Shown piece after piece: positions 23,416 to 44,387 of a stretch of DNA of 64,000 bases. The DNA comes from Ezakiella coagulans. GTDB lineage: Bacteria > Bacillota > Clostridia > Tissierellales > Peptoniphilaceae. Each line of letters opens with the position of its first letter. Position 1 is the stretch's first letter. The position numbers and the translations under genes are program-made. Under the pieces are notes generated by a model. It was not told where the DNA came from. It saw only the letters and a program-made list of their open reading frames with translations, and did not search any database. The stretch is taken from contig NZ_QEKV01000001.1 of assembly GCF_003096635.1 (NCBI RefSeq), positions 195,534-259,533 of the forward strand, read 5' to 3'.

Positions 23416-23554
23416 ATTTGCGGCTATTTGCGGTCTATTTTGCGACCTGCTTGCAAACTTCAATTATTTGATTGCTCGGAGTGCAATTGAGCACACCTGC
23501 GCAATCAAAAATTAAGTTTGCGGCGCATCTCATCAAAATATCATCGCAAATAAA
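23413..23554. repeat. inverted-repeat element D, long form
   Basis: Ends TTTATTTGCG and CGCAAATAAA are perfect inverted repeats. The 142-bp body contains TTGCGGTCTATTTTGCGAC, also present in the 63-bp form at 25148-25210. The element sits directly on the rplQ terminator. The rest of 23555-24134 has no gene. Confidence 0.65.
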
Positions 23555-28803: not shown

Positions 28804-28840
28804 ATTGCAACTAAATTTGCGACCTTGCGGTCTGAAATTC

Positions 28841-28890
28841 AAAAAATACCTCTCGACGTACATTTTAAGTACGACTCGAGGTATTTTTTT
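28841..28890 (+). terminator. terminator of the PepC-like pair
   Basis: AAAAAATACCTC pairs with GAGGTATTTTTT, with further pairing toward a 7-base loop, then T residues. Confidence 0.8.
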
Positions 28891-28939
28891 CTTTCATCCC
28901 ACAATCTCATCAAATTTAGAGTGCAATTTGGTGAGATAT

Positions 28940-28977: not shown

Positions 28978-28989
28978 TGGGAGCTTTTG

Positions 28990-29353: not shown

Positions 29354-30586
29354 ATGTATAACAAACAGACAAAATACTTACTTGGAGGGAGAATTGCCAC
29401 AAATATAGCGGACTCACTTCAATATATGATGATTCTTTGGTTTTTCAACGAGACATTTAAGTCACCTTTTTTGTTGGGTGTAATATTTGCGATTGAATCC
29501 GGGGCAGATGTAATCAGTTTTTTATTTGGACCGCTGATTGATAATTCGAACAGCAAAAAATTGTTGATTAAATGTTCTGCAGTACAAATAATAAATGTTC
29601 TGATTTTGTGTGTGATAAATATTACTTTTGGAATCAAAAGTAATGTGATATATTCGATTATAATGGTTCTTTCTTTAACTATAACCACTCTCGCAAGCAC
29701 AATAATTTATCCATTACAGACAAAAATGATACCGATGGTAGCAGGTGAGACACCTTTGGTTAAAGTAAACGGAATATTTAATCTCTCTGAAAAAATATTT
29801 GATGTGCTTTTTAATGCCGGAGCAACACTCTTAATTTCATCTTTTAACGTAAGCTTCAATCTGATCATTTCGTTGGTAGTTTTTTTAATTGGGATAAAGC
29901 TATATTCGCTGTTAAATTATGATGAAAATTTTGACTTTTCAGAGATTGAAGACTATGAAGAAGAGGGAACGGTAGGAGAATATATAGCGGATTTAAAAGA
30001 GGGATTTGTGGAACTTCGAAAACAAAATGAACTTCTAAAACTCATAATACCTCTTATGGTAATAAACTTCTTTTTTGCAATTGCGGATATAGGGCTACCG
30101 AGGCTTGCAAGCGAATATATTTCAGATGAAGCCACAGGCTATGGGCTTATACTATCAATCAGTGCAATTGGGTCAATTGTGGGTGGCGCATTTACACAAT
30201 TTAAAAATATTGAAAAAGCGAATCTTAGAAAAACGGTCGCAATGTGCTTGATATCATCCGGGATATTTAAACTAATAACTGCGATAACAATAAATAGAAT
30301 TTTTGTTTTGTGTTGCATCTCAATATTTTTTTGCAGTGCTTTTATAAGCTTTATGAATATTTTATTTATATCGCTTGTCCAATCAACTGTTCCGGTGAAT
30401 ATATTGGGGAGAGTTGAGACAATAAATGAAAGCATTATCTCGGCAATAATTCCTTTAGGAACTTTTGCAGGAGCATTTGTAATAAAAGAATATGGAAGCA
30501 TAATGACACAATATATATACGCGGTGGCTCTGGTTGTATTTGGGGTGTATTATGCGTTGTTAAAGGTGGAGAAATATTCTTGCTAA
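29354..30586 (+). CDS. MFS transporter
   Basis: 410 residues with about twelve hydrophobic helices and a charged mid-loop (SEIEDYEEEGTVGEY), a layout typical of the major facilitator superfamily. The early GPLIDNSNSKKLL loop matches the cytoplasmic loop-2/3 signature position. Similar short MFS proteins are annotated as drug efflux (MFS_3/enterobactin exporter-like), but the substrate cannot be read. TATAAT at 29271 and GGGAG before the ATG support expression. The last codons (TAT-TCT-TGC) and the stop TAA are the first bases of repeat element C, so the true C-terminus was replaced or extended by the repeat. Confidence 0.85.
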   Translation: MYNKQTKYLLGGRIATNIADSLQYMMILWFFNETFKSPFLLGVIFAIESGADVISFLFGPLIDNSNSKKLLIKCSAVQIINVLILCVINITFGIKSNVIYSIIMVLSLTITTLASTIIYPLQTKMIPMVAGETPLVKVNGIFNLSEKIFDVLFNAGATLLISSFNVSFNLIISLVVFLIGIKLYSLLNYDENFDFSEIEDYEEEGTVGEYIADLKEGFVELRKQNELLKLIIPLMVINFFFAIADIGLPRLASEYISDEATGYGLILSISAIGSIVGGAFTQFKNIEKANLRKTVAMCLISSGIFKLITAITINRIFVLCCISIFFCSAFISFMNILFISLVQSTVPVNILGRVETINESIISAIIPLGTFAGAFVIKEYGSIMTQYIYAVALVVFGVYYALLKVEKYSC

Positions 30587-30666
30587 AATTGCGAAAAACG
30601 GTTGTTCGACTTTTTAGTCGCTGCGACATACTTGCCAGTATGCCTCGCTCCAAAAAAATCTCGCAC
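30577..30666 (+). repeat. inverted-repeat element C (after the MFS gene)
   Basis: Starts TTCTTGCTAAAATTGCG inside the end of the MFS gene and has an internal CATACT TGCC AGTATG hairpin. The right terminal repeat is missing here; the full form is at 34631-34751. Confidence 0.75.
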
Positions 30667-30672
30667 GGAAAT

Positions 30673-30795
30673 ATTCTTGCTAAAATGGCGACTAACTTGC
30701 TTTTCAGAATCTCACAACCTGCGACGTATTTACCAATACGCCTCGGTTGGTCGTTTATTGCAAAGCGGCGTTATTCATCCATTTTAGCGAAGAAT
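30673..30795 (+). repeat. inverted-repeat element B, 123 bp
   Basis: Ends ATTCTTGCTAAAATGG and CCATTTTAGCGAAGAAT pair with one bulge. The internal stem CAACC...GGTTG encloses the CGTATT TACC AATACG hairpin. Other full copies at 34897, 40759 and 42856 have exactly the same length. Confidence 0.85.
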
Positions 30796-30815
30796 GTAGT
30801 GTGAACTATATAATA

Positions 30816-30860
30816 AAAATACCTTGAGATTGATTAAAAATCATCTTGAGGTATTTTTTT
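30816..30860 (+). terminator. ATACCTTGAG terminator module
   Basis: Hairpin AATACCTTGAGA...TCTTGAGGTATT with T run, in fixed position about 20 bases after element B (also at 42997 and 56489). It probably ends the MFS transcript. Confidence 0.75.
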
Positions 30861-30887
30861 GTAGAGGTGTGTGTACGCCGCTGTAAC

Positions 30888-30905
30888 GGCGGATTACATT
30901 CCGCC
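30888..30905. repeat. GGCGGA hairpin (compensated variant)
   Basis: GGCGGA TTACAT TCCGCC, followed by the GCCCATTTTTGTGT flank. The innermost pair is A-T where other copies have G-C. Confidence 0.65.
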
Positions 30906-31017
30906 GCCCATTTTTGTGTGTTTGGAATATGAAGACAAACCAACAACTTTGTGCTTATATAATATCGAATAAGAACCTCATCTATTTCGTCCTACACCTT
31001 CACATTCCTTTTATGAT

Positions 31018-31046
31018 TTGACACCATCAACAAGCATTGATATACT
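31018..31046 (+). promoter_or_regulatory. promoter of the ABC exporter pair
   Basis: TTGACA (31018-31023), 17 bases, TATACT (31041-31046); near-consensus. Confidence 0.75.
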
Positions 31047-31082
31047 ATAAATATACATATTATTTTCACAAGGGAGTACATT

Positions 31083-32867
31083 ATGAAAGACAAGTACAGT
31101 TTTTTCAGCAATTTATTTTTTCTAATAAAAAATTGGTTCAAAAAGGACACGTTCGGGGCGATTGTCGTTTTTGTTTCGGCTATTATTTCCGTTATAATTC
31201 CGATGGTTGATGCATTTATTACGAGAACTGTTGCAAATTCGATAATTGAAAGTGCGGAGATTAGTTTTTTCATAAGAGAGCTTGCGGTTCTTTTTTGCGT
31301 TTATATAGTTTTGAAGTTTATAAATGTGTGGGCGGAGGAACGGACGTGGTTTTTTCAAAACAAGGTCAGCATGCTCTATGGAGTCGATTTGATGGATGCG
31401 GTCATGGACAAGGAGCTTGCGGATTTTGAAAGCACGAAGGGCCGCTCGCTTTTTGAGCGTGCAAAGAGTTTTGCATTTGACGGAGACCAAGCGGACGGTG
31501 CGTGGTCAGCGATAAGATTTTCAAAGCTTTTGACATCGTTTGTCGGTTTTCTTACTTACACGATCATTTTCAGCAAGGTCAGTTTTGTGTTGATTGCGAT
31601 TGTTATTTTGACTTCGTTTATTGCATATTTTCTCCAACACAAGTTGACGGAATTCGGAAATGTGACGGCGGACGAGATGTCGCTCGAGGAGATGCGCCTA
31701 TATTATTTATATAGGATAGCCGGCGAGTCGCGTGCACAACGAGAGGTGCGGATTTTGAATGCTTTCGGCATGGTCTATTCGTATCTTGCAAAGTTTTCAA
31801 ACGCATATTATTCAATTTTAAGAAAATATACAAAAAAGGCGAACACATCCACAGAACTCCAAGCGGTGCTTGGTTTTGTGAGAGATTTTTTCACATATTA
31901 TATTTTGGCGAAAAATGCGGCACTTGGAAAAATTTCGACCGGTGACTTTATTTTTTATCTCACTCTTGTTGTCGGTTTTTCGGAATGGCTGAACAATTTC
32001 ACGGGTCATATTATGAGTCTTAAAAGAATTTCAATCGGCTGCGGCAAGTATCGCGAGTTTGTCGATGAGAAGAAAGACGAGGATAAGAAGCCGGACATTG
32101 ACGTCATAAATGATATCGAACTAAAAAATCTTTCATTTCAATATGACGAGGATTCGAAGATTTTAAAGGATATAAATTTATCGATGAAAAGGGGCGACTC
32201 GGTTGCAATTGTCGGTGAAAACGGAGCCGGAAAAACCACGCTTATAAAAGTGCTTGCCGGTTTATACAAGCCGACGGCGGGCGAGATTTATGTAAATGGT
32301 AAAGATTTTAACAATTTTTCGAGCGAGTCTATTTATAAAAGGACGAGCATTCTTTTTCAGGATTATTTCATGCTTCCGGGGACGCTTCTTGAAAATATGG
32401 ACAACAAAGGTCTTGACGAAAAAAGGGCGACGGAGTTTGTGGAAAAGCTTGGACTTAAAGATAGAATAGACGGCTTGACAGATGGGCTTCAAAGCGAAGT
32501 GATCGATGTGGAAAACAATAAAATTGAAGGTTTTTCGGGAGGGGAACTTCAAAGAATTCTCCTTATAAAATCGCTTATGAAAGAGAGCGACATATTGATT
32601 CTTGACGAGCCGACGGCTGCACTTGACCCGATAAGCGAAGAAAAGCTCTACAATGAGTACAAGGATTTCAGCAGGGACAAGATTTCCATTTTTATTTCGC
32701 ACAGAATCACCTCGACGAGATTTTGCGACAAAATAATTTATTTGGAAAACGGCGAAATTGCGGAATACGGAACATACGAGGAGCTGATGAAGCTGAACGG
32801 AAAATACAAAAAGATGTTCGATTTGCAAGCGAAGTATTATAAGGAGGACGAAAATGAAGATGATTGA
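31083..32867 (+). CDS. ABC transporter, fused permease/ATPase, subunit 1
   Basis: 594 residues. About six membrane helices lie in residues 20-310, then an ATPase domain with Walker A GENGAGKTT (about 380), signature FSGGELQR (about 484) and Walker B ILILDEPTAALDP (about 505). It overlaps the next gene by 14 bases, so a heterodimeric exporter is likely. Exporters of this build move peptides, lipids or drugs; no precursor peptide or modification enzyme is nearby to choose among them. GC content looks higher than in the flanking intergenic DNA and matches the core genome. Confidence 0.9.
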   Translation: MKDKYSFFSNLFFLIKNWFKKDTFGAIVVFVSAIISVIIPMVDAFITRTVANSIIESAEISFFIRELAVLFCVYIVLKFINVWAEERTWFFQNKVSMLYGVDLMDAVMDKELADFESTKGRSLFERAKSFAFDGDQADGAWSAIRFSKLLTSFVGFLTYTIIFSKVSFVLIAIVILTSFIAYFLQHKLTEFGNVTADEMSLEEMRLYYLYRIAGESRAQREVRILNAFGMVYSYLAKFSNAYYSILRKYTKKANTSTELQAVLGFVRDFFTYYILAKNAALGKISTGDFIFYLTLVVGFSEWLNNFTGHIMSLKRISIGCGKYREFVDEKKDEDKKPDIDVINDIELKNLSFQYDEDSKILKDINLSMKRGDSVAIVGENGAGKTTLIKVLAGLYKPTAGEIYVNGKDFNNFSSESIYKRTSILFQDYFMLPGTLLENMDNKGLDEKRATEFVEKLGLKDRIDGLTDGLQSEVIDVENNKIEGFSGGELQRILLIKSLMKESDILILDEPTAALDPISEEKLYNEYKDFSRDKISIFISHRITSTRFCDKIIYLENGEIAEYGTYEELMKLNGKYKKMFDLQAKYYKEDENEDD

Positions 32868-34641
32868 TGTTTATCGCGACATAAACAAAATTAATAAAAA
32901 CATTCTTCCGGTTATACTTTTAAACTGTCTATTCAGTGCGATTGAGCCTTTTGTGTTTATTTTTGTGTCGGGGAAATTGGTGAAATATTTGATTGAGGGA
33001 AGGGCGTTTAAAGAAATAGTTACGCTTTCTCTTGTCGGGGCGGCGATTTCTCTTGCGGTTTATGTTATAAAAAACATAACGGAAAATTACAAAATGGAAT
33101 TTATGGACTATTTGAATTGCAAAGAGAAAAATCTTTTGATTAAGGGAATGTTTAATCTCGACTTCAAGGATTTCGAATCCAAGGAATACAAGGATAAGAT
33201 TTCGAGACACAGACAGGAGACCGACGGAATCGGCGGAGTTTATTATGAAACGCTTTATCTTTTGAGCGATTTTGTGAGCGGAGTTTTGACGATTATTATT
33301 GCGGCAATTTCTCTCGGTGGATTTTATAAAACTTTGAATCAGTCGGTGGATATAAAAATTCTCGGGGAAAGATATTTTCCGCTTATTTTACTTGCGGCGC
33401 TTATTATACTTTCGGTGCTTTTAGCAATCTTTAGAAAAAAAGTTGAGGAGAAAAATGAGGATGACCGCGAAGAATATTCGGTAAAATATAAAATCTACGA
33501 TTTTTATATGCGCCTTTTGTCCGACTACGAGTCGCTCAAACAAATAAAAATATTTGATGAAAAGCCGTTCATCAAAAGAGAATTGAACGACAAATTTGTG
33601 AAAGACGGACTGTCACTGGACAGAAGAGTGAGTGTAAGAACCGCTTTTTCGCAAGCCATGAACGAATTTTTGATGACGGGAATCAATGTGTTATTTTTGC
33701 TCGTGCTTGCGGTAAAGGCAATCGGCGGACTCTTTGGGGCGGATGCGCTTATAATCTACTACGGTGCATTCAAAGAAATTGTCGATGGAATAAAACTTTT
33801 GATTGAATCGGTCGGCTATAAAAAATCCATCGAGCCGAAAATAGAAATTTTATATGACGTAATCGCTCTTAAATCGGAGAGCGACGAAGGAAAATATATT
33901 GAAGAAAGCACGGAAAATGCAATTGTTGCAAAAAATATTTGCTTTGCTTATCCGGGAAGCGACAAAAACACACTCGAAGAAATTGATGTCACAATAAAAA
34001 ACGGCGAGAAAATTGCAATCGTGGGCGAGAACGGCTCGGGAAAAACAACATTTATAAATCTCTTGACCGGACTTTATAGACCGACATCGGGAGAAATATT
34101 TGTGAACGGAAAAACTCCGACACTTGAAAATACTTCGAAAGAAGCGGGAGTTGTGAGCCAGGACTTCTTCTTGTTCTCATTTATGCTCGGAGAAAATGTT
34201 ACATCGTCAAGGGATGTTGATGTGAAAAATGCAAAACTCGCACTCGAAACCTCCGGCTTCGGCGACAAATATCCGCTTGAAACATATCTCTACAAAGACA
34301 TTGACGAAGACGGTGTCGACGTTTCGGGCGGAGAAGCTCAAAAAATTGCACTCGCAAGGGCAATATATGGAAACAAAAAAATCTTGCTCTTTGACGAACC
34401 TACATCAAAACTCGACCCGAAATCGGAAATGAAAGTTTTTGAAAGCTTCAACGAAGTCTCGAAAGGAAAAACCTCAATCTTCGTCTCTCATAGAATGAGT
34501 GCCTGCAAATTTGCCGACAGAATCATACTCTTTGAAAAAGGTAAAATCTCAGCAATCGGAACGCATGAGGAAATGATTAGAGGGAGTGAGAGGTATCGAG
34601 AAATGTGGGAGGCCCAAGCTAAGTATTTTTATTCTTGCTAA
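32854..34641 (+). CDS. ABC transporter, fused permease/ATPase, subunit 2
   Basis: 595 residues. A six-helix membrane domain is followed by Walker A GENGSGKTT (about 390), signature VSGGEAQK (about 490) and Walker B ILLFDEPTSKLDP (about 511). In this subunit the residue after Walker B aspartate is glutamate, so its site looks active. It pairs with the upstream gene. As in the MFS gene, the C-terminal Tyr-Ser-Cys and stop come from repeat element C that begins at 34631. Confidence 0.9.
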   Translation: MKMIDVYRDINKINKNILPVILLNCLFSAIEPFVFIFVSGKLVKYLIEGRAFKEIVTLSLVGAAISLAVYVIKNITENYKMEFMDYLNCKEKNLLIKGMFNLDFKDFESKEYKDKISRHRQETDGIGGVYYETLYLLSDFVSGVLTIIIAAISLGGFYKTLNQSVDIKILGERYFPLILLAALIILSVLLAIFRKKVEEKNEDDREEYSVKYKIYDFYMRLLSDYESLKQIKIFDEKPFIKRELNDKFVKDGLSLDRRVSVRTAFSQAMNEFLMTGINVLFLLVLAVKAIGGLFGADALIIYYGAFKEIVDGIKLLIESVGYKKSIEPKIEILYDVIALKSESDEGKYIEESTENAIVAKNICFAYPGSDKNTLEEIDVTIKNGEKIAIVGENGSGKTTFINLLTGLYRPTSGEIFVNGKTPTLENTSKEAGVVSQDFFLFSFMLGENVTSSRDVDVKNAKLALETSGFGDKYPLETYLYKDIDEDGVDVSGGEAQKIALARAIYGNKKILLFDEPTSKLDPKSEMKVFESFNEVSKGKTSIFVSHRMSACKFADRIILFEKGKISAIGTHEEMIRGSERYREMWEAQAKYFYSC

Positions 34642-34751
34642 AATTGCGAAAAACGGTTGTTCGACTTTTTAGTCGCTGCGACATACTTGCCAGTATGCCT
34701 CGCTCCAAAAAAGTCTCGCACTAACCGTTTTTCATCAATTTTATCTGCGAA
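34631..34751 (+). repeat. inverted-repeat element C, complete
   Basis: Left arm ATTCTTGCTAAAATTGCG...AAACGGTT pairs with AACCGTTTTTCATCAATTT and TCTGCGAAT on the right. Inner CATACT TGCC AGTATG hairpin. It supplies the stop codon of the ABC gene. Confidence 0.8.
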
Positions 34752-34787
34752 TGTGAGGACAAAAATACAATTGTTATAATCATGATA

Positions 34788-35262
34788 GGTGCTTGTTTCA
34801 CCTCCGCTCTCATTGCAACGTGCGTTTAAGCACGTCTCACTCGAGTGGTGTCTGTACTACGCCTTTTTCATCAATTTTATCTGCGAATGTGTAATTATTC
34901 TTGCTAAAATGGCGACTAACTTGCTTTTCAGAAGTTCCCAACCTGCAGCGTATTTACCAATACGCTTCGGTTGGTCGCTTCTTCCAAAGCTGCGTTATTC
35001 ATCCATTTTAGCGAAGAATTTAGGGTAAAAATAACAATTATGCTATTAAGGAGAAAGGCTTGTTTCGACTACACACAAGTGTTGTTTGTACTACCCCTTT
35101 TTCATCAATTTTATCTGCGAATGATGTTGAGATATAATAGGTCGGTTTTTGCAAAGCGGCATTATTCATCCATTTTAGCGAAGAATTAGGGTGAACAATT
35201 GATTGGTCGCTTCTTGCAAAGCTGCGTTATTCATCCATTTTAGCGAGGAATTTTGGTGATAT
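34788..35262 (+). repeat. cluster of elements A (partial), B and B fragments
   Basis: Partial element A (34788-34886), full 123-bp element B (34897-35019), then degraded A (about 35050-35121) and two B right ends (near 35140-35187 and 35201-35250). The series of right ends looks like repeated insertion and loss at one site. No gene is seen in 34642-35641. Confidence 0.75.
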
Positions 35263-35270
35263 TTGAAATG

Positions 35271-35309
35271 AAAACACCTTGGGAAGATACATTTCCAAGG
35301 TGTTTTTTT
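35271..35309. terminator. ACACCTTGGGAA terminator module
   Basis: AAAACACCTTGG...CCAAGGTGTTTT with T run. Relative to the 28940 copy the T-A pair is replaced by C-G, a compensated change. Confidence 0.65.
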
Positions 35310-35324
35310 GTATAAGCTTTTGTA

Positions 35325-35510
35325 CGCGTTGTAGCGGCTGGCATACGTTACGACGAAAGGAGTAACGATAGAACTGCCTGTGCCCAACCGCGTGAAATAC
35401 CCTCTCAGTGCTCAAATACGAAATCACAGATTTCTTTTTCGCACTGCCGGGCACAGGCATACATCTTTGATTTCGTATTTGAACGCGGGAAGGGTACCGC
35501 CATATATGAC
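35325..35510. repeat. hairpin repeat with a nested cassette
   Basis: The GCGGCTGGCAT hairpin is opened at its tip after GAGTAACGATA by a foreign stem-loop: GCCTGTGCCC (35376-35385) pairs with GGGCACAGGC (35449-35458), and TCAAATACGAAAT / ATTTCGTATTTGA form a further pair. The hairpin then closes with CCGCCATATATGACG. Confidence 0.65.
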
Positions 35511-35641
35511 GTCTATTAAATTTGGAACATTACCAACGACGTTGTGTTTTTAAAATATATATACCATTCCTATTCTATAATTTTCAGTTTGTGTCAATAT
35601 GTAAATAAAAACCGAAAGCATTTTTGCCGCCGGTTCCTGTT

Positions 35642-36331
35642 TTATTTAAATCGTGATTTCTTTTGTTTATGCATGATGTCTTTGATGTTGACCACTCTGT
35701 CGCAAGCATAGTAAAGAAGCTGAACGTCGTGGCTTACAAGAATTATACTCATGCCGTGTTTTTTTCTATATGAATCCAAAAGCTCCGTTGTTTTTAATTT
35801 CAAATTCACGTCAAGCGGGGAAGTGATTTCATCGGCAAGCAAAACTTTCGGCTCAGTTAGAAGTGCCCTGATGATTTGTGCACGACTTATCATTCCGCCT
35901 GACAATTCGTAAGGACGCTTTTTGAGGCATTCTTTATCCAGTTCAAAATCTTCAATAAGTGTTTCAAGTTCCGCTTCATTAAATTCTTTTTTGGAGAAGT
36001 GAAGTGCTTCTTTGAAACTTTGAAGGATAGTTTTTTTCGAGTCAAACGATGAAACTGCGTTTTGGAAAATAAGCTGAACCGGAAAATCTTCAAGATTTCT
36101 CCGTTTGTCACCGACAATCGGAAGATCCCTTCCTTTGTATAGGATTTCACCGCTGTCCAAAACAATGAGGCCTGCAATAAGTCTCAATAGTGTGGTTTTG
36201 CCGCTGCCCGACGGACCTATTATTCCCAAAAATTCATTTTCATATAAATCCAGGTTAAGGTCCATAATGGTTGGAGCGTCTTCCATCTTAAAACTCTTTT
36301 TTAAATTTTTAATCTCTAGAATTTTGTCCAT
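35642..36331 (-). CDS. ABC transporter ATPase, peptide/nickel type (second ATPase)
   Basis: 229 residues from the ATG at 36331, which has AAGGA upstream; the open frame continues further back but into the previous gene. Walker A GPSGSGKT (39-46), LSGGMISRAQI signature and LLADEITSPLD. It is shorter than OppF (about 310) and lacks its C-terminal extension, resembling NikE/CntF-size ATPases. Last gene of the minus-strand importer operon; its start overlaps the upstream ATPase gene by 23 bases. Confidence 0.88.
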   Translation of the reverse strand: MDKILEIKNLKKSFKMEDAPTIMDLNLDLYENEFLGIIGPSGSGKTTLLRLIAGLIVLDSGEILYKGRDLPIVGDKRRNLEDFPVQLIFQNAVSSFDSKKTILQSFKEALHFSKKEFNEAELETLIEDFELDKECLKKRPYELSGGMISRAQIIRALLTEPKVLLADEITSPLDVNLKLKTTELLDSYRKKHGMSIILVSHDVQLLYYACDRVVNIKDIMHKQKKSRFK

Positions 36332-37067
36332 AAATAATCCTTGCTGATTGTAAAAGAGATTGTGTGTTTTCATCTTTGCTGTCAAAAATCTCTTTGGAGT
36401 TTTTGTCTTCGGTAATTTTTCCATCCTTAAACACGCAGATTCTGTCTGTGAGCTGAATTGCATCAAATGGGTTATGCGTGATGTATATAAGGCTCATATT
36501 TGTTTTTTCAATATGAGATTTTATAATGCTTATTGCCATGTCGGTGGAGTCTCTGTCGAGAGCACTGGAAATTTCGTCAGCTATCAAAAGCTCCGGCTCA
36601 CGATTTAATATCATCGCTATTACGACACGTTGTTGCATTCCGCCCGAAAATTCTTCAGGAAATTTTTTGGCGTTTTCTTTATTGATGCCGATGTTTTCTA
36701 ATGAATCGAGGGCAATTTCCGTTGCGGCTTTTTTTGAAATGCCTTTTACAAAAATCAAGTCGCTGACCATTTGATCGATGATTTTTATATACGGATTTAA
36801 TGAGTTTTGAACATCTTGCGTGATATAGCCGATGGATTTTTTTAATTTATCTTTTAAATTCGTCTGAACTTTTTCGTGATTATAAAAAATTTCGCCGTCA
36901 ATTTTTGCATTGTTTATAAGACCGAGTGCAGAGCGGAAGGTAAAACTCTTTCCGGCACCGGAAGCACCGATGATTCCAAGTGAAGAGCCAGGTTCAAGAT
37001 TCAAGTTGATATCTTTTATAATAGTATTGTCGGATAGACTTACTGAATAATTTTTTAACTCAATCAT
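36309..37067 (-). CDS. ABC transporter ATPase, peptide/nickel type (first ATPase)
   Basis: 252 residues. Walker A GASGAGKS (34-41), signature FSGGMQQRV and Walker B LLIADEISSALD. Length matches NikD-type rather than OppD-type (about 330) ATPases, which supports a small-ligand or metal-complex importer. It overlaps the permease gene by four bases. Confidence 0.88.
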   Translation of the reverse strand: MIELKNYSVSLSDNTIIKDINLNLEPGSSLGIIGASGAGKSFTFRSALGLINNAKIDGEIFYNHEKVQTNLKDKLKKSIGYITQDVQNSLNPYIKIIDQMVSDLIFVKGISKKAATEIALDSLENIGINKENAKKFPEEFSGGMQQRVVIAMILNREPELLIADEISSALDRDSTDMAISIIKSHIEKTNMSLIYITHNPFDAIQLTDRICVFKDGKITEDKNSKEIFDSKDENTQSLLQSARIIYGQNSRD

Positions 37068-37831
37068 ATATGAACCTCGTCAAATGTGTAGTGGAATATC
37101 AAGCTCAGGAAAAATATTCCGAGTGCAGGCCAAAGCACGACCAGCGGCTTTTCAATAATGAATCCTCTATATTGATATAGCATAGTTCCAAAATCAGGAG
37201 AGGTGATGTCAGCACCCAAACCGATGAATGTTAGCGATGCGTATGCCAAAATATGATTTGATGCTTTGTTGCCCATAAGATTTAATGTTGACGGAAGAAG
37301 TTCCGGGAACAAAAACTTCCTCATGATGTATGAATTTGGAGCCTGAAGCATCCTTAGCGTGTCCACATACGGGTCTCTTAAAATTATATCGCACAGTTTG
37401 TAGCTTTGGTTTGCGAAAAAGCCGATATTTGAAAATCCGAGGGCAAGTCCGACCGCAAAGACGGAGTCGCTGAACATGATGGATGAAATAAGTGCCACAA
37501 TAAATGTAGGAATTATAAGTGTAAGGTCAGTTAAAAATCTTATGACAACAAGGGGGAATCCTCCGTAGAATCCCGCAATAATTCCAAGAAAGACCCCGAA
37601 AATGTAGGACACAGTACTTGCAACAACAACTACATAAAGCGTTCTTAAAAAACCTTGTGCCATGAGAGAAAATATGTCTCTCCCCAAATGGTCGGTTCCC
37701 ATTAAATGTTCCGACGATGGAGGCAAAAATTTATTAGCTATGTTTACGAATTTCGGATTTTGTGTGGGAATTATAGAAAAAATAATTGCCAACAAAACGA
37801 TGACAGCAATTGCTATTAAAGCTCTTTTCAT
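37064..37831 (-). CDS. ABC transporter permease, OppC/NikC type
   Basis: 255 residues with about five or six helices. The GTDHLGRDIF motif near residue 45 is characteristic of OppC/DppC/NikC permeases, and an EAA-like loop lies in the second half (ELLPSTLNLMGNKASNHIL). The gene overlaps its upstream partner by one base. Confidence 0.88.
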   Translation of the reverse strand: MKRALIAIAVIVLLAIIFSIIPTQNPKFVNIANKFLPPSSEHLMGTDHLGRDIFSLMAQGFLRTLYVVVVASTVSYIFGVFLGIIAGFYGGFPLVVIRFLTDLTLIIPTFIVALISSIMFSDSVFAVGLALGFSNIGFFANQSYKLCDIILRDPYVDTLRMLQAPNSYIMRKFLFPELLPSTLNLMGNKASNHILAYASLTFIGLGADITSPDFGTMLYQYRGFIIEKPLVVLWPALGIFFLSLIFHYTFDEVHI

Positions 37832-38748
37832 TAATCATTCCCCCTTTTTATAAAATGGCTCGAAAAGATGTTAAATATTAGATGTACAAAAAACATCCAT
37901 ATTATAATCATCATTATATATGTCTGAATTATCAGATAGTCCCTGTGTGCTATCGACTCGATTAAAAATGCTGAAAGCCCTTGAATCGAGAGTGCGAATT
38001 CAACAACTGAACTTGCCCCGATGACATAGGCACTTTGGCTTATCAAAAGCCCGAACAGCCCTTGAAGCGGTTCGTGGTAGCAATACTTTAGGAGAGCTTT
38101 CTGTTTGCTGTAACCTCTTTCGATATAAAATCTGAAAAAAGGTTTTTTAATAACGTCTAAAAAGTAGATTCTAACCGTTCGCGACATCGGCCCGATAAGC
38201 GGGAGTCCAACAAAAAAAACGCCGACAGCAAGACTTGCAACTGATCCGGATCTGAAAAACCTGATAAATTTATACTTTACCCCGAAAAAGTATACGAATA
38301 AAATTATAAGGATAAAGACAGGAACAGTTTGGGTAAAAAGCGCGAGTGCTCTTGTTAAACGGTCAAAAAAACCGTCTTTCAAACTGGACAGATAGCCAAG
38401 ACAAAAGGCTAATATACTTGCGTATAATAGCCCTAAAAAGCCTAGCAAAAGAGACGTTGGAGCACGCCTTATGATCTCAGGTTTTAAATTTACACCGGTC
38501 ATAAAGCTCTTGCCCCAATCTCCTTTAATAAAATCTGAAATCCAGTCGAAATACTGTGTGATAAGGGGTTTATCAAGACCGAATTCTTTTTTCAAATAGT
38601 TAATGTTTTCTTCGGTGGCGGGCAGATTTTTCTCACTGAGGACCATCATAACCGGGTCACCGCTCATAAGCCTTACAACGCCAAATGCGATGATAGAGCC
38701 TATGAAGAAAATTAGAAACCATTTACAGAAAAAATTTACAAATTTCAT
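37831..38748 (-). CDS. ABC transporter permease, OppB/NikB type
   Basis: 305 residues. The early GDPVMMVLSEKNLPATEENI segment and six helices identify OppB/NikB-type permeases. It begins one base after the binding-protein gene stop, so the two are tightly coupled. Confidence 0.88.
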   Translation of the reverse strand: MKFVNFFCKWFLIFFIGSIIAFGVVRLMSGDPVMMVLSEKNLPATEENINYLKKEFGLDKPLITQYFDWISDFIKGDWGKSFMTGVNLKPEIIRRAPTSLLLGFLGLLYASILAFCLGYLSSLKDGFFDRLTRALALFTQTVPVFILIILFVYFFGVKYKFIRFFRSGSVASLAVGVFFVGLPLIGPMSRTVRIYFLDVIKKPFFRFYIERGYSKQKALLKYCYHEPLQGLFGLLISQSAYVIGASSVVEFALSIQGLSAFLIESIAHRDYLIIQTYIMMIIIWMFFVHLIFNIFSSHFIKRGND

Positions 38749-38749
38749 C

Positions 38750-40240
38750 TTATCTAACTTTTAAAGTCGGATTTGTAACAAAAAAGTCTCCGTTCCAAAT
38801 TTCGTAACCTTTAACCTTGTCTGAAAGCATTACGAACCAGTGCGGGTCGACTGTGTATAAAATTGGAAGATCTTCATAGATCTTTGCTTGAATTTCTTTT
38901 GAAAGTTCATCTCTCTTAGCGATATCAGCTGTAACTCCGAGTTCATCAATCAACTTGTCAACTTCTTCATTTCCATAGTAGCTGTGATTTTTTACAGAAC
39001 CTGTCTTGAAGTGTTGTGCAAAGAAATAGTGCGGATTGCCGCTTGCTGTAGGATTTTGTGCATAAAGAAGAATATCGTGGTCTCCCTTTTCAGCTTCTTC
39101 ATCGATACTGTCTGCAAGTCTTACAGTAGCTTCAATACCGACTTGTTCCAAATCTGAAACGAGAACTTGACCGATAATCGGAAGATCTGGTTTTGCAGAA
39201 TATGTTAAAATTGAAAGCTTAACATTGTTGCCGTCTTTGTCAACCAACTTGCCGCCGTTATATGAATAGCCTGCTTGTTTAAATTCTTCTTTAGCCTTAT
39301 CAACATCGTAAACAATTTTTTGATCGCCGTTGAAGCTGAAATTCTTTGCAAATAATCCTGTAGGAATGTCTCCGCCGCCGAGAGCATCAATTATTTCTTG
39401 TCTATTTACCAATAAATCAAGGGCCTTTCTGAAATGAATATCCTTGATATGGTCTCTGTTCAAATTCAAGAAACAATAATATTGATAACCTGCACTATAA
39501 TCTACAGCATTAAATCCTTTTTTCTTCAAACTTGTTGCAACATCATTTGTTAAACCGAAAGCAACGTCAACTTCACCGCTTTCATAAGCAAGTCTAAGTG
39601 CATTTGCATCTTGGAATGCCTTAATAAGAACTGTTTCAGGTCTGTCTTCAAAACCGTCGTAGAACTCATTTCTTTCCAAAACAACTTCGGCACCCGGTTT
39701 TAAATCCTTAATCTTGTAAGCTCCTGTGAAAATAAACTTGTCGCCGTCTTTCTTAAACATAACATTTGTCCATTCTGCAAAAATTGATTCAAGGCTAACT
39801 GTCGGCAATTCTGTAACAATTTGAACCTTGTATTCATCGATTGGAGTGAAAACAATCTTGCCGGCAGATGCACGTGCAAATTCGTTTTTGTCCATAATCA
39901 TATTCATTGCATCACAGAAAGCTTGAGCGTCAACTTTGTCTCCGTTTGAGAAACAGACGCCTTCGTTTAGCTCTGCAACAAAATTGTTGTTGTCCTTAGC
40001 CTCGATTGATTTAACAAATCTTGACTTAAGTGTTCCGTCAGGTTGAAGAGTATAAACATATTCACTGATACCATGGTTTGTTAAACTCCAACCGTTTGCA
40101 CCGTCAAGCGGATCATCGCTTGCGATAACCCATGTTTGACCGACAACAATTTCTTTAACATCTGCTTGTGTGTCGTCTTTTTTGCAGCCGAATGTAAATA
40201 ACATAGCAATTAAAACTGCAATTAAAATTAGTTTTTTCAT
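38750..40240 (-). CDS. substrate-binding lipoprotein, SBP family 5
   Basis: 496 residues. Signal peptide with lipobox FTFGC (C19), then a periplasmic-binding-protein fold of the oligopeptide/nickel family (EGVCFSNGDKVDAQAF, LNLNRDHIKDIHFRKAL and the C-terminal DLPILYTVDPHWFV). First gene of the operon. The upstream cobalamin-type riboswitch suggests a ligand tied to B12 metabolism, such as cobalt or a corrinoid, rather than general peptides. That is inference; sequence alone does not give the ligand. Confidence 0.88.
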   Translation of the reverse strand: MKKLILIAVLIAMLFTFGCKKDDTQADVKEIVVGQTWVIASDDPLDGANGWSLTNHGISEYVYTLQPDGTLKSRFVKSIEAKDNNNFVAELNEGVCFSNGDKVDAQAFCDAMNMIMDKNEFARASAGKIVFTPIDEYKVQIVTELPTVSLESIFAEWTNVMFKKDGDKFIFTGAYKIKDLKPGAEVVLERNEFYDGFEDRPETVLIKAFQDANALRLAYESGEVDVAFGLTNDVATSLKKKGFNAVDYSAGYQYYCFLNLNRDHIKDIHFRKALDLLVNRQEIIDALGGGDIPTGLFAKNFSFNGDQKIVYDVDKAKEEFKQAGYSYNGGKLVDKDGNNVKLSILTYSAKPDLPIIGQVLVSDLEQVGIEATVRLADSIDEEAEKGDHDILLYAQNPTASGNPHYFFAQHFKTGSVKNHSYYGNEEVDKLIDELGVTADIAKRDELSKEIQAKIYEDLPILYTVDPHWFVMLSDKVKGYEIWNGDFFVTNPTLKVR

Positions 40241-40283
40241 AAAAATTCTCCTTTAACTAATTATAGTATAGAAATAAACAGGT

Positions 40284-40320
40284 AAAAAAACTAGCATTGC
40301 TCTGAACCGGAGCAAAACTA
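40284..40320 (-). terminator. riboswitch expression-platform terminator
   Basis: On the minus strand TAGTTTTGCTC pairs with GAGCAATGCTA around CGGTTCA, followed by seven T. It lies between the aptamer and the binding-protein gene, so it can switch transcription off. Confidence 0.75.
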
Positions 40321-40324
40321 AGGT

Positions 40325-40405
40325 ACAAGTATCGGACTTATGCATAAATGCAAATACCGTAGCGGCACTGTGTGGGATTCTAACCCACTTCCTTGTTATA
40401 TTCTA
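40325..40405 (-). ncRNA. cobalamin-riboswitch-like aptamer, shortened
   Basis: Read on the minus strand, AAGGAAGTGGG-TTAGAAT-CCCACACAG, then GTGCCGCTACGGTA, a short TTTGCATTTATGCATAAG arm and AGTCCGATAC match in order the conserved 3' core of cobalamin riboswitches (GGAA, AATCC, CCGCCACTGT, AGCC-GA-AC). Outer stem ACAAG (40392-40396) / CTTGT (40325-40329). The usual 5' half with the GGTGC element is not present between promoter and core, so this is a minimal or degenerate form. Confidence 0.7.
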
Positions 40406-40414
40406 TCTATTCCC

Positions 40415-40443
40415 ATTATACTGCAAAGTGAGTTAGATAACAA
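40415..40443 (-). promoter_or_regulatory. promoter of the riboswitch-ABC operon
   Basis: Minus strand TTGTTA (40443-40438), 17 bases, TATAAT (40420-40415). It places the transcript start only about 10-20 bases before the riboswitch core. Confidence 0.75.
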
Positions 40444-40445
40444 CT

Positions 40446-40567
40446 ATTCTTGCTAAAATGGCGAAAAAGGCTTGTTTCGCCACCACTCTCATTGCGACGT
40501 GCGTTTAAGCACGTCTCACTCGAGTGTTGTCTGGACTACGCCTTTTTCATCCATTTTATCTGCGAAT
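40446..40567 (+). repeat. inverted-repeat element A, 122 bp
   Basis: Ends ATTCTTGCTAAAATGGCG / CCATTTTATCTGCGAAT, then AAAAAGGC / GCCTTTTT inside, and a central ACGTGC GTTTAA GCACGT hairpin. Identical length at 42624 and 44186. It abuts the -35 box of the minus-strand importer. Confidence 0.85.
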
Positions 40568-40575
40568 GTGTAATT

Positions 40576-40881
40576 ATTCTTGCTAAAATGGCGACTAACT
40601 TGCTTTTCAGAACCTCCCAACCTGCAGTGTATTTACCAATACGCCTCGGTTGCTCGGTTCTATTCTTGTTAAAATTGCGAAAAACGGTTGTTCGACTTTT
40701 TAGTCGCTGCGACATACTTGCCAATATGCCTCGCTCCAAAAAAGTCTCGCACGTAACTATTCTTGCTAAAATGGCGACTAACTTGCTTTTCAGAATCTCA
40801 CAACCTGCGACGTATTTACCAATACGCCTCGGTTATTCGATTCTTCCAAAGCGGCGTTATTCAACCATTTTAGCGAAGAAT
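40576..40881 (+). repeat. element B left part, element C, and full element B
   Basis: B left part (40576 to about 40662), C (40672-40752) and a complete 123-bp B (40759-40881). No gene is supported in 40241-41443. Confidence 0.8.
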
Positions 40882-40898
40882 TTTAGTTAGGAGACGTT

Positions 40899-40945
40899 AA
40901 ATACCTTGATATTGATTTTGTTAAATAATTTTAAGGTATTTTTTT
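40899..40945. terminator. ATACCTTGA terminator module
   Basis: AAATACCTTGA... TTAAGGTATTTTTTT hairpin 18 bases after element B, as at the other sites. Confidence 0.65.
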
Positions 40946-40965
40946 GTATAAGCATGTATACGCGT

Positions 40966-41025
40966 TGTAGCGGCTGGCATACGTTACGACGTAAGGAGTA
41001 ACGATGTCCTGCCGCCATATATGAC
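40966..41025. repeat. GCGGCTGGCAT hairpin, inverted orientation
   Basis: Nearly the same sequence as at 28990, ending CCGCCATATATGACG. It follows the terminator module, as at 28940 and 35271. Confidence 0.7.
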
Positions 41026-41387
41026 GTGTATTAAATTTAGAACATTACCAACAACGTTGTGTAAATAAAAAATATAAACCACCTTAATTATATAATTTAC
41101 AACCACATCAACAATGCTATATATAAAATATCGCTCCCACAACGATTAAGACAATTGATATTTTAATAATTTTCATAACATATTTAAAAAAATAAAAAAC
41201 ATACTATTCACAAACATTATGATTTCTTAACAATAAACATTGAAACGTGTAATAGTTGGACAAAAAATCATTATATATCTCTATATATGATTTAATTTGC
41301 ACACAAAACGGAATAAGAAGTTATTATATAGGCGATTATCGTTAAAAATATATTAATATACAATAAAAACATGCTCATATTGTAAAT

Positions 41388-41416
41388 TTGAAATCAACAA
41401 TTCTGTCTGTTAGAAT
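41388..41416 (+). promoter_or_regulatory. promoter of the alcohol dehydrogenase
   Basis: TTGAAA (41388-41393), 17 bases, TAGAAT (41411-41416), 28 bases before the start codon. Confidence 0.65.
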
Positions 41417-41443
41417 GTAATTATAGAAAGAGAGGAATTTATT

Positions 41444-42622
41444 ATGATGAGATTTACTTTACCAAGAGATATGTATTATGGCGATCACGCTCTAGACATT
41501 TTGAAGGAACTTGAAGGAAAGAAAGCGATTGTTGTTGTCGGAGGAGGTTCGATGAAAAGAGCCGGTTTCCTCGACGAAACTGTAAACAATTTAAAAGAAG
41601 CCGGAATGGAAGTCGAACTTTTTGAAAATGTTGAATCCGACCCGTCAGTTGAAACTGTTATGAAGGGCGCAAAGGCAATGCAAGACTTCGGACCGGACTG
41701 GATTGTTGCAATCGGCGGAGGTTCTCCGATTGACGCTGCAAAAGCAATGTGGGCTTTCTATGAACATCCGGAAGTGACATTTGAAGATTTGATCATACCT
41801 TTCAATTTTCCGAAACTAAGAAAGAAAGCTAAATTTGTTGCGATTTCTTCAACTTCAGGAACAGCAACGGAAGTTACCGCTTTCTCTGTTATTACGGACT
41901 ACGAAAAAGGAATAAAATATCCACTTGCAGACTTTGAAATAACACCTGATATTGCAATCCTTGACCCAAGAATTGTTGAATCTATGCCGCAAAGACTTAC
42001 AGCCGACACAGGTATGGACGCTCTTACACACGCAACTGAAGCTTATGTATCAACAGTTGCATCACCTTTTACCGATCCACTCGCTCTAAAAGCAATTGCA
42101 ATGATTGATAAATATCTAAAAAAATCATACCACGGCGACAAAGATGCACGTGAACAAATGCACTATGCACAATGCATGGCAGGACAAGCTTTCTCGAACG
42201 CACTTCTTGGAATTGTCCACTCACTTGCTCACAAAACAGGCGCAGCATTTAGTTGCGGACACGTTGTTCACGGCTACGCAAACGCAATGTATCTTCCATA
42301 TGTAATTCAGTACAACAGAAAAGACGAAAGAGCTTTGAAGAGATATGGTGACATCGGAAGAATGCTCGGTTTTGAAGGAACAGATCTAGAAATCAGCGAC
42401 AAATATATTGCAATGATTAGAGATTTCAACAAAGAATTCGAAATCGTAAATTCCTTGAAAGAATTCGGAGTCGATGAAAAGGAATTCCTCGAAAAACTCC
42501 CTACAATTGCAAAGAATGCAGTCCTCGACGCATGCACAGGCTCAAACCCAAGAAAAATTGACGATGCGACGATGGAAAAACTGTTAAAATGCATTTATTA
42601 CGGAGAAGAAGTTACCTTCTAA
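41444..42622 (+). CDS. iron-containing alcohol dehydrogenase
   Basis: 392 residues. NAD(P) site GGGSPID (91-97) and the metal ligands of the FucO/butanol-dehydrogenase family are intact: D192, H196, H259 and H273 (spacing identical to FucO). It reduces aldehydes to alcohols, probably for fermentation redox balance; the aldehyde is not known. It is a single-gene unit with its own promoter and a GAGAGG ribosome site. The stop codon is followed one base later by repeat element A. Confidence 0.93.
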   Translation: MMRFTLPRDMYYGDHALDILKELEGKKAIVVVGGGSMKRAGFLDETVNNLKEAGMEVELFENVESDPSVETVMKGAKAMQDFGPDWIVAIGGGSPIDAAKAMWAFYEHPEVTFEDLIIPFNFPKLRKKAKFVAISSTSGTATEVTAFSVITDYEKGIKYPLADFEITPDIAILDPRIVESMPQRLTADTGMDALTHATEAYVSTVASPFTDPLALKAIAMIDKYLKKSYHGDKDAREQMHYAQCMAGQAFSNALLGIVHSLAHKTGAAFSCGHVVHGYANAMYLPYVIQYNRKDERALKRYGDIGRMLGFEGTDLEISDKYIAMIRDFNKEFEIVNSLKEFGVDEKEFLEKLPTIAKNAVLDACTGSNPRKIDDATMEKLLKCIYYGEEVTF

Positions 42623-42623
42623 A

Positions 42624-42745
42624 ATTCTTGCTAAAATGGCGAAAAAGCCTTGTTTCGCCACCACTCTCATTGCGACGTGCGTTTAAGCACGTCTCACTCG
42701 AGTGTTGTCTGTACTACGCCTTTTTCATCCATTTTATCTAAGAAT
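42624..42745 (+). repeat. inverted-repeat element A, 122 bp
   Basis: Starts one base after the alcohol dehydrogenase stop. It has the same ends and central ACGTGC/GCACGT hairpin as 40446-40567; its right end reads AAGAAT. Confidence 0.85.
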
Positions 42746-42759
42746 TTACAGTATAACTG

Positions 42760-42978
42760 TTCTTGCTAAAATTGCGAAAAACGGTTGTTCGACTTTTTAG
42801 TCGCTGCGACATACTTAGCAGTATGCCTCGCTCCAAAAAAGTCTCGCACGGAATCATTCTTGCTAAAATGGCGACTAACTTGCTTTTCAGAAGCTCCCAA
42901 CCTGCGACGTATTTACCAATACGCCTCGGTTGGTCGCTTCTTCCAAAGCGGCGTTATTCATCCATTTTAGCGAAGAAT
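42760..42978 (+). repeat. element C (left part) and element B (123 bp)
   Basis: C at 42760-42849, B at 42856-42978. Same C-then-B order as 30577-30795. Confidence 0.8.
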
Positions 42979-42996
42979 TTGGGTGAAATATATAAT

Positions 42997-43042
42997 AAAA
43001 ATACCTTGAGATTGATTAAAAATCATTTCAAGGTATTTTTTT
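42997..43042 (+). terminator. ATACCTTGAG terminator module
   Basis: AATACCTTGAG...TTCAAGGTATT hairpin with T run, 18 bases after element B; the likely terminator of the alcohol dehydrogenase. Confidence 0.7.
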
Positions 43043-43069
43043 GTAGAGGTGTGTGTACGCTGCTGTAAC

Positions 43070-43091
43070 GGCGGGTTCCGGGAATCCCGCC
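43070..43091. repeat. GGCGGG hairpin
   Basis: GGCGGG / CCCGCC around TTCCGGGAAT. Nearly the same as the copy at 56557. Confidence 0.65.
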
Positions 43092-43205
43092 GCCATATAT
43101 GACGTGTATTAAATTTGGAACATTACCAACAACGTTGTGCATATAAAATATATAAACTATTCTATTTTATAATTTATAAACGTATTTTCGATCTGTACGT
43201 ATCCC

Positions 43206-43345
43206 AAAAAGTAGCGTCGGGTGCACAATCGACGTCATAGACTCATTTCTCCTGTTCGTCGAAATATCGTCGGACGTCTTTGTATAAGACCTACCATCGT
43301 ATTTTTGATTTTTCAAATCAAAAATTACGGGTTAGGTCTTTAACA
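43206..43345 (-). repeat. inserted cassette E, copy 3
   Basis: Inverted copy of 8960-9100 lying inside a GCGTCG... / ...GCGACGC stem. No gene is seen in 42623-43520. Confidence 0.65.
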
Positions 43346-43467
43346 TTGCGACGCCCATTTTTGTGTATGGGAAATATTTGTTATTACGAACAACGCTGTG
43401 TATATAGAATATCTCCCTATAATAATTATCCAATAATATCATCTTTTCATTAGCAAAAAATACATCT

Positions 43468-43495
43468 TTGACATTTTTTTCTATTGTGATAAAAT
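43468..43495 (+). promoter_or_regulatory. promoter of membrane gene pair 1
   Basis: TTGACA (43468-43473), 16 bases, TAAAAT (43490-43495). Confidence 0.6.
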
Positions 43496-43520
43496 ATAAG
43501 TGTTAGGAGTGGATGAAAAA

Positions 43521-43694
43521 ATGAAGGAAAAATTTAAAAAATTCAGCATAAAACACTGGTGGATATATTCCGTTTTAATTGGAATTTTGGTTGCCGTGTT
43601 TTTCTATTCAACGAGACAAGAAAATCTGAGATTTGTTTTTGATGAAGTGTATGAATATATGAAAATAGTTGTGGAAACTTCTCCGGGGTATTAA
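43521..43694 (+). CDS. small single-helix membrane protein, pair 1 first gene
   Basis: 57 residues from the ATG at 43521 (AGGAG upstream); a GTG at 43500 is possible. Basic start, one helix (WWIYSVLIGILVAVFFY), then a short external tail. It is followed one base later by a larger membrane protein, the same order as two other pairs at 62002 and 62737. Function unknown. Confidence 0.7.
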   Translation: MKEKFKKFSIKHWWIYSVLIGILVAVFFYSTRQENLRFVFDEVYEYMKIVVETSPGY

Positions 43695-43695
43695 T

Positions 43696-44181
43696 ATGAA
43701 AAATGAAATGAATTTAGAAAAAATTCCATATGTAAAAATAATTCTTTTCGCCGTCTTATTTTCATTTATATTTACTGAGCTATTTGTCTTAATCGGAAAA
43801 GAGAAAGTCATAGATGCAAAAATAACACACGTCGACATTGAAAATGAAGATTCAGATGAAATCTATGATAAAATCTGGAAAATGTGGGATTTTTTTGGAA
43901 GTGCATCAATGCATAGGTCCGAAGTATTGGAAGAAGAAAAGAAGAATTACGAATTTTACGCTCCAACGGATGAAAGGCTCTTTAGCGAAGTGTTTATGGA
44001 TCCCGAGAAATTTTATGAAAATCGCAAGAACGGTACCTTAAACAACAAGATCTTATTTGAAATAAGTATGCTTATGGAAAAGTGTACAAGATTGAGAGAT
44101 GAAAAGAAGATTAATGTGCTCAGTTTTGAGTACAAGGGGGAGGAGATTAGGTTTCCCATAGGATTAGGAATCACCAGATAA
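43696..44181 (+). CDS. membrane-anchored protein, pair 1 second gene
   Basis: 161 residues from the ATG at 43696. One helix (about 14-32), then an external domain that shares motifs with the proteins at 62201 and 62955: an aromatic-x-x-P segment (YAPTDERLFSEVF), a LRKK/NRKN-x-x-LN turn and a closing SFEYKGEEIRFPI. No known family recognised. Element A starts five bases after the stop. Confidence 0.75.
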   Translation: MKNEMNLEKIPYVKIILFAVLFSFIFTELFVLIGKEKVIDAKITHVDIENEDSDEIYDKIWKMWDFFGSASMHRSEVLEEEKKNYEFYAPTDERLFSEVFMDPEKFYENRKNGTLNNKILFEISMLMEKCTRLRDEKKINVLSFEYKGEEIRFPIGLGITR

Positions 44182-44185
44182 AAAA

Positions 44186-44307
44186 ATTCTTGCTAAAATG
44201 GCGAAAAAGGCTTGTTTCGTCACCACTCTCATTGCGACGTGCGTTTAAGCACGTCTCACTCGAGTGTTGTCTGTACTACGCCTTTTTCATCCATTTTATC
44301 TGCGAAT
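44186..44307 (+). repeat. inverted-repeat element A, 122 bp
   Basis: Full element A immediately after the second gene of pair 1, followed by the left 72 bases of element B. Confidence 0.85.
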
Positions 44308-44315
44308 GTGTAATT

Positions 44316-44387
44316 ATTCTTGCTAAAATGGCGACTAACTTGCTTTTCAGAAGTTCCCAACCTACAGCGTATTTACCAATACGCCTC
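44316..44387 (+). repeat. element B, left 72 bp (island junction)
   Basis: Matches bases 1-72 of the 123-bp element B, ending ACGCCTC. The missing 51 bases (GGTTGG onward) are at 56420-56470. Together they make exactly 123 bp. Confidence 0.9.

Follow-up and report, generated by a model that had tools for sequence, protein, structure and literature searches.

A superfamily of imperfect hairpins, ~120–126 nt long and in many cases lying just behind stop codons, was found in the genome (G000) that holds the 64,000-nucleotide stretch of Ezakiella coagulans DNA analysed here (the window). Its members in the window include three related elements, A, B and C, which are imperfect hairpins of ~122 bases. 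The fold is conserved and the sequence is not. Copies swap outer and inner stem modules with one another, and the slot behind a gene persists while its content changes. Hairpins of ~120 bases, built of exchangeable nested stems and placed behind stops, point to an undescribed kind of mobile 3'-end element. The reading favoured here, at a probability of roughly 0.6, is that they are non-autonomous, structure-defined mobile hairpins specialised for gene 3' ends. Comparisons were made with G001, G002, G003, G004 and G005 of the same genus and with genomes of other genera.

Genes were called with a codon-usage script of our own, applied to stretches of G000, G005 and G001. G000 stretches other than the window were picked for holding elements, and those of G005 and G001 came from element-bearing regions; copy density is therefore biased, and the placement test is conditional on elements. 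The null was a random model over non-coding positions on both strands, without selection against insertion elsewhere. Among array-leading copies in G000, 23/45 were in sense orientation within 15 nt of a stop (null 4.7%, p = 4e-19; 14/25 in a smaller G000 set), as were 15 of 20 in G005 (null 5.0%, p = 4e-16) and 14 of 18 in G001 (null 5.4%, p = 5e-15). Chance placement was rejected on this excess in the three genomes. The original prediction, made from the window's sequence, had suggested 3'-end targeting and had set random spread relative to genes against it; copies are not spread at random, and placement at 3' ends is strongly supported in G000 and two congeners. Copies typically lay −1 to +14 nt from the stop codon, or just past a terminator or tRNA 3' end (gaps behind tRNA genes were 0, 6, 7 and 45 nt). 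Thirteen of the 17 copies found 16–75 nt past a stop were preceded by a T run typical of terminators. Relative to the upstream gene, 131 of 149 copies were sense and 11 antisense, and 7 had no called gene. A stub of 11–13 nt of the element 5' end often stood before a complete element (L045, L102, L106, L126, L178 12262–12273), which looks as though this is where new elements come in or take the place of older ones.

Elements A, B and C share a central hairpin and have ends of the form ATTCTTGCTAAAAT.../...ATTTTA-C-GAAT; both features were found where the original prediction had placed them. Single-strand folding of one copy of each gave one long imperfect hairpin, with z-scores of −5.0 (A), −7.2 (B) and −5.8 (C); 0/200 shuffles were as low in each case. 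Copies had been predicted to begin 1–5 bases past the stops of the alcohol dehydrogenase and membrane-pair genes, and the gaps are 1 nt (stop 42620–42622, element C from 42624) and 4 nt (stop 44179–44181, element C from 44186). In two further genes the TAA and the preceding Ser-Cys codons had been assigned to the element itself, and their coordinates agree: the TAA of the major facilitator superfamily (MFS) gene at 30584–30586 (...KVEKYSC-stop) and that of the second exporter gene at 34639–34641 (...AKYFYSC-stop) both lie inside a copy. Two covariance models were used, R1 built from 25 copies and R2 from 60. Neither found an element in the 6.2-kb exporter locus of Ezakiella peruensis, and the exporter orthologue there (59% identity, best segment) has the C-terminus ...AKYYN-stop. 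The Tyr-Ser-Cys of the exporter is thus attributed to the element, this being the sole orthologue end compared; the prediction's counter-case, homologues ending in Tyr-Ser-Cys without the repeat, was not encountered in it. Among named relatives, E. peruensis was the closest found; its exporter locus ends with a 209-nt repeat that is insertion sequence-like by eye and 99% identical to G001 copies. By DNA similarity, A, B and C proper were confined to the window and one site on contig C5, the superfamily being genome-wide.

The structure is a single imperfect hairpin of concentric stems, with the conserved internal loops GCGA/TCATC and TGCG/CTC between them. For 60 chosen copies from five genomes, a 28-pair structure was paired in 95.3% of cells (73.0% when shuffled) and 330 cells were doubly changed (95 when shuffled), with compensatory changes in 26 of the 28 pairs, the outermost stem included. 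When the structure was slid by one column, pairing was at most 53%. Eight of the 149 copies were removed by length before terminal complementarity was tested, and 13 more before the shell-linkage analysis described below. The terminal 7-nt ends matched their own partners better than those of other copies (in G001 a complementarity of 6.90, against 5.44 when shuffled; highest of 300 shuffles, 5.81). The end pairs vary yet remain complementary, as in ATTTGCGG/TCGCAAAT, ATTTGTGG/TCACAAAT, ATTTAGGG/TCCTAAAT, ATTTCGTG/TACGAAAT and ATTTACAG/TTGTAAAT. The GCGN and CATC-like loop motifs occurred together in 126/141 copies. Because the ends vary while staying complementary and the pairs covary, the data fit a selected fold, in RNA or in single-stranded DNA (ssDNA), rather than a fixed protein-binding end. 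One G000 copy (L022 520–643, contig C5) carries a perfect palindrome at its centre, which looks as though one arm were a copy of the other and is possibly a trace of hairpin extrusion in DNA.

For the analysis of module exchange, the hairpin was divided into concentric shells 1–4, and linkage was expressed as r with a Mantel test. In 66 copies from G001 and G005, the 5' and 3' partners of each shell were tightly linked (r = 0.64, 0.83, 0.88 and 0.76 for shells 1–4). Between shells 1 and 2 of one arm, two columns apart, no linkage was seen (r = 0.02, Mantel p = 0.34), and that between shells 2 and 3 was weak (r = 0.33). In 57 G000 copies the shell partners gave r = 0.73–0.91, and shells 2 and 3 gave r = 0.17. 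This pattern leaves three roughly free units: shell 1, shell 2 and the interior. Inner identity of at least 95% with outer identity of at most 75% was seen in 23/77 pairs in G001/G005 and 1/45 in G000; outer identity of at least 97% with inner identity of at most 70% was seen in 31/97 pairs in G000 and 5/75 in G001/G005. Near-identical interiors in different outer stems, and vice versa, argue for exchange and not saturation. Apex-only exchange was rare (1/90 and 1/70 pairs). Seventeen gene ends carried an element in both G001 and G005; classed by pairwise identity, 10 held another type, 3 a partly different element and 4 the same element. Random pairs had a mean middle identity of 0.68, like the replaced slot pairs. 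Ten G001/G005 sites placed side by side displayed changed content, short 5' stubs and 3' remnants, and at 2/10 one species had no element in the stretch read.

In G000 the R1 model matched 118 times at E ≤ 10, and 78 of these matches were at E ≤ 0.01, counts that include both strands of the palindrome; removal of duplicates left 73 copies. The commonest form in G000 has the ends ATTTGCGG.../...CCTCGCAAAT, and A, B and C belong to this wider family. Across 41 genomes R1 matched in 5 (G000, G001, G002 and G005 of one genus, G020 of another), with no match in G003 or G004 of the same genus. R2 matched in 19/130 genomes of the family; copy numbers from this search are lower bounds, as up to 27 candidates per genome were scored under stricter filters, and five or more copies per genome were confined to genera g1 and g16. 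With R2, no match was obtained in G003 and a single weak one in G004 (E = 2e-5), and each of 11 genomes from other genera had 1–2. An Rfam search of window positions 28000–46000 at E ≤ 1 matched no element, and a known Rfam family was rejected within that scope. The exact core pattern was found in 0 stretches of a genome-contig collection from which records of the same or a very near genome may have been excluded, and window positions 34600–35300 had no match in phage and plasmid collections. The titles and abstract openings listed from one paper library held no prior description of these elements.

Presence differs between close relatives. Over the 181 amino acids compared, the EF-Tu proteins of G004 and G000 are 97% identical. 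An element lies behind tuf in G000, G001, G005 and, as a weak match (26.8 bits), G002; directly behind tuf in G004 there is a plain terminator and no element. R1 found no element in the nine G004 loci examined, and R2 found one weak match there (33.6 bits), ~1 kb beyond tuf. At three further G000 element sites (four including tuf), the G004 sequence past the orthologous gene is without an element. A VanY-like gene of G000 (just under the Pfam cut-off), with hairpins on both sides, lies between two genes that are adjacent in G004. Of the REP/MITE-like mobility originally suggested (repetitive extragenic palindrome, REP; miniature inverted-repeat transposable element, MITE), mobility itself is supported by sites filled in G000 and element-free in G004. 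The link to a RAYT/TnpA-like gene, for which a search had been proposed, is not: Y1_Tnp (PF01797) had 0 matches in G000, G002, G003 and G004, and G001 and G005 each had a single weak one (24.7 and 26.4 bits; the cut-off is 23), in a search that was positive in 5/14 known genomes used as control. A RAYT/Y1 system was rejected on the lack of a Y1_Tnp match in G000. At two tuf loci (L024 on contig C11 of G000, − strand; L131 on contig C1 of G005, ~1199945–1200190) the intact gene is followed by ~165 nt (a terminator and a repeat ending CTAGGGCTTCGAA), a repeat of the final ~80 nt of tuf, and then the hairpin. This duplicated tuf end, alike in two species, is suggestive of an old insertion that renewed the 3' end of the gene.

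Under the favoured reading, a structure-reading enzyme supplied in trans would act at the 3' ends of transcripts, inserting a folded single strand of DNA or RNA there, and the survivors would be those copies that leave the stop and the gene intact. Once placed, an element would be transcribed as a stem-loop of the 3' untranslated region (3'-UTR) between stop codon and terminator. There it should alter ribosome release and access of 3' exonucleases. PMC12306157 reports lowered translation where E. coli REPs sit within 15 nt of a stop, and an effect is therefore predicted here too. For the exchange of modules, the simplest explanation would be that the extruded hairpin breaks and the gap is repaired with another copy as template.

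Several observations weigh against mobile hairpins specialised for 3' ends. Antisense copies make up 11 of the 142 with a called upstream gene, and 9/45 G000 leaders fall outside −15 to +75 nt sense, among them the window copy at 40446 in a 5'-5' region. A terminator-like hairpin lies within 150 nt downstream in just 33/75 stop-proximal copies. Some slots at housekeeping genes such as tuf are common to several species, which also fits a function. Linkage between shells 3 and 4 (r = 0.71 in G001 and G005, 0.78 in G000), and between shells 1 and 2 in G000 (r = 0.45, p = 0.001), limits the independence of the modules. A crude search for recombinase motifs in 431 kb of G000, itself weak evidence, gave no credible candidate (one serine-recombinase-like pattern was judged spurious), and target-site duplications were not seen by eye in the flanks. 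No transposase gene flanked by these ends was noticed, no dedicated search having been made.

Copies outside genera g1 and g16 lay mostly at guaA or guaA-like ends. Of the 16 matches in the 11 other-genus genomes, 15 were read (the second match of G104 was left out). Five abutted the stop of guaA (−1 to +2 nt), the identity of guaA being confirmed by NCBIfam in those five and in G000; eight lay behind a guaA-like end GA(A/G)TGGGA(A/G)TA(A), and the remaining two made up a single array past an end of this type. Both kinds occur in G000 (L084 1576 and 4784). The genes between the two hairpins included a P-type ATPase with a Penicillinase_R-type regulator (G139), GmrSD (G085) and AIPR (G000). Where one end was read, nearby genes were a dcm-type methylase and Vsr beside the guaA hairpin (G045), an OLD-like nuclease (G047) and a P-type ATPase (G057). 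GNAT genes lay near the hairpin in G070 and beyond the second hairpin in G000. Two of them, nearly identical by eye (L084 5154–6194 in G000; L257 6420–7460 in G070, another genus), are both preceded by a hairpin with the same outer stem, its inner part shorter in G000, suggesting that hairpin and GNAT cargo were recently transferred between genera. Most simply, such islands would have brought the hairpin from genus to genus, with later multiplication in two of them.

The main rival is an attC-like dispersed cassette system, in which a recombinase would read the folded strand and cargo of gene plus hairpin would enter or leave behind an existing stop. This alternative is unlikely, with evidence on both sides. 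It would account for the sense position behind stops, for a structure kept without its sequence, for the conserved unpaired bases, for the other-genus copies at guaA and guaA-like ends, for the cargo between or beside hairpins, and for the hairpin-flanked VanY-like gene, and module exchange resembles recombination between stems. However, attC core sites have the form GTTRRRY / RYYYAAC, and such a core was present in 0/141 copies within the terminal 22 nt plus 10 nt of flank at either end; a canonical attC was rejected. Most copies follow ordinary genes with no visible cassette, and neither tuf nor a tRNA gene is a cassette. Inspection by eye of the island open reading frames (ORFs) read revealed no integrase, no integrase family search having been made there, and the association with guaA may reflect hitch-hiking with an integrase specific for that gene.

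Functional cis-acting RNA elements of the 3'-UTR (sites for RNA-binding proteins or RNase III), under selection and spread only by gene conversion, are a distinctly unlikely explanation. Strong compensatory change, sense orientation behind genes, the element behind tuf in four genomes (weak match in G002) and the slots kept between G001 and G005 would suit them. They accord poorly with G004, which lacks the element at the compared sites despite its near-identical EF-Tu, with tandem arrays and truncated copies, and with the upstream genes: for just 4/40 of those tested in G000 did the G001 or G005 set contain a homologue with an element. A conventional MITE, with terminal inverted repeats and moved by a DDE transposase, or a REP mobilised by a RAYT/Y1 enzyme, is very unlikely: short dispersed palindromic repeats with inverted ends and many similar G000 copies would agree with it, but the terminal sequences vary with compensation, unlike a fixed transposase site (on which ground a MITE with fixed terminal repeats was rejected), the orientation bias is strong, no target duplication was seen by eye, and Y1_Tnp matches were as given above.

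A broader proposal is tentative: mobile 3'-end elements of interchangeable concentric stems might form a combinatorial system, moved and reshuffled by an enzyme that reads hairpin shape and not sequence, and doubling as attC-like docking sites for cargo, defence genes at guaA included, within a bacterial family. If these readings are right, bacteria harbour mobile elements that find gene 3' ends and swap nested stems like parts of a kit. Matched relatives would then offer natural 3'-UTR insertions for the study of stop-adjacent structure, termination and mRNA decay, the hairpins could guide the search for an enzyme with shape-based hairpin recognition, and dispersed repeats would be tied to cargo islands at guaA.

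Copies in the window are collected in the table below. Two further repeat families lie near hairpins and terminators, one at 35497–35586, 41012–41101 and 43090–43179, the other at 29161–29225, 30905–30969 and 43352–43416; the intergenic regions of the window are thus repeat mosaics. The sole Rfam match in 28000–46000 was an adenosylcobalamin (AdoCbl, cobalamin) riboswitch at 40287–40407 on the − strand, above the Rfam gathering score and upstream of the − strand gene block 35642–40240. An AbiEi-type antitoxin gene (PF13338) at 44735–45322 is followed by a same-strand ORF (45451–46317), and the two are possibly an AbiE toxin-antitoxin pair.

Superfamily hairpins and copies of elements A, B and C in the window (window coordinates).
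Feature	Position	Strand	Basis
Superfamily hairpin, sense, 48 nt past gene end, with terminator-like T run between	23426..23551	+	Covariance model match
Superfamily hairpin, ends AATTGCA.../...TGCAATT; first base completes stop of ORF 27472-28803	28803..28928	+	Covariance model match
Element A without 3' part; gives MFS gene 29354-30586 its Ser-Cys-stop	30576..30666	+	
Element B, full length	30673..30795	+	
Element A, full length; gives exporter gene 32854-34641 its Ser-Cys-stop	34631..34752	+	
Element C, 5' end altered	34769..34888	+	
Element B, full length	34897..35019	+	
Element C fragment, then two B 3'-end fragments (~35138-35187, ~35203-35252)	35036..35122	+	
Element C, head of array C - B (5' part, ~40576-40651) - A (~40662-40752) - B; 5'-5' region, no + strand gene before	40446..40567	+	
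Element B, full length	40759..40881	+	
Element C, 1 nt past stop of iron alcohol dehydrogenase gene 41444-42622	42624..42745	+	
Element A without 3' part	42759..42849	+	
Element B, full length	42856..42978	+	
Element C, 4 nt past stop of ORF 43696-44181; B 5' part next (~44316-44388)	44186..44307	+	
Element B 3'-end fragment (C1:251952-252003)	56419..56470	+	DNA similarity

Four known systems invite comparison. The bcr1 repeats of the Bacillus cereus group are intergenic structured repeats, probably mobile and confined to one bacterial group. The present elements are likewise an intergenic structured repeat of one bacterial group; stop-codon anchoring and nested-stem exchange are not known for bcr1. 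Genomic islands with cargo genes are known to integrate at the 3' end of guaA. The hairpin islands share with them integration at guaA with cargo, and solitary hairpins also occur here at guaA or guaA-like ends; the listed abstract openings on such islands mention neither a hairpin past the guaA end nor its genome-wide spread in two genera. In integrons, the attC site sits directly behind the stop of its cassette gene. PMC2727003 gives an R-box consensus of GTT/AAC and describes attC as an imperfect hairpin with conserved unpaired positions and variable sequence, all of which but the consensus is found here. The unpaired loop motifs may, by analogy, be equivalent to the attC spacer and extra-helical bases. 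Unlike attC sites, the 141 copies have no attC core and are dispersed behind housekeeping genes. E. coli REPs are also dispersed palindromes in 3' regions with many copies (here 73 in G000), some within 15 nt of a stop: 446 of 4,072, and 260 of 496 in an earlier study, according to PMC12306157 (RepRanger). They differ from the present unit, which is ~120 nt long, mostly sense, concentrated at stops and made of exchangeable modules, with no Y1 transposase in G000. The elements fail a tested defining feature of each of these two systems, yet they are REP-like in position and attC-like in architecture.

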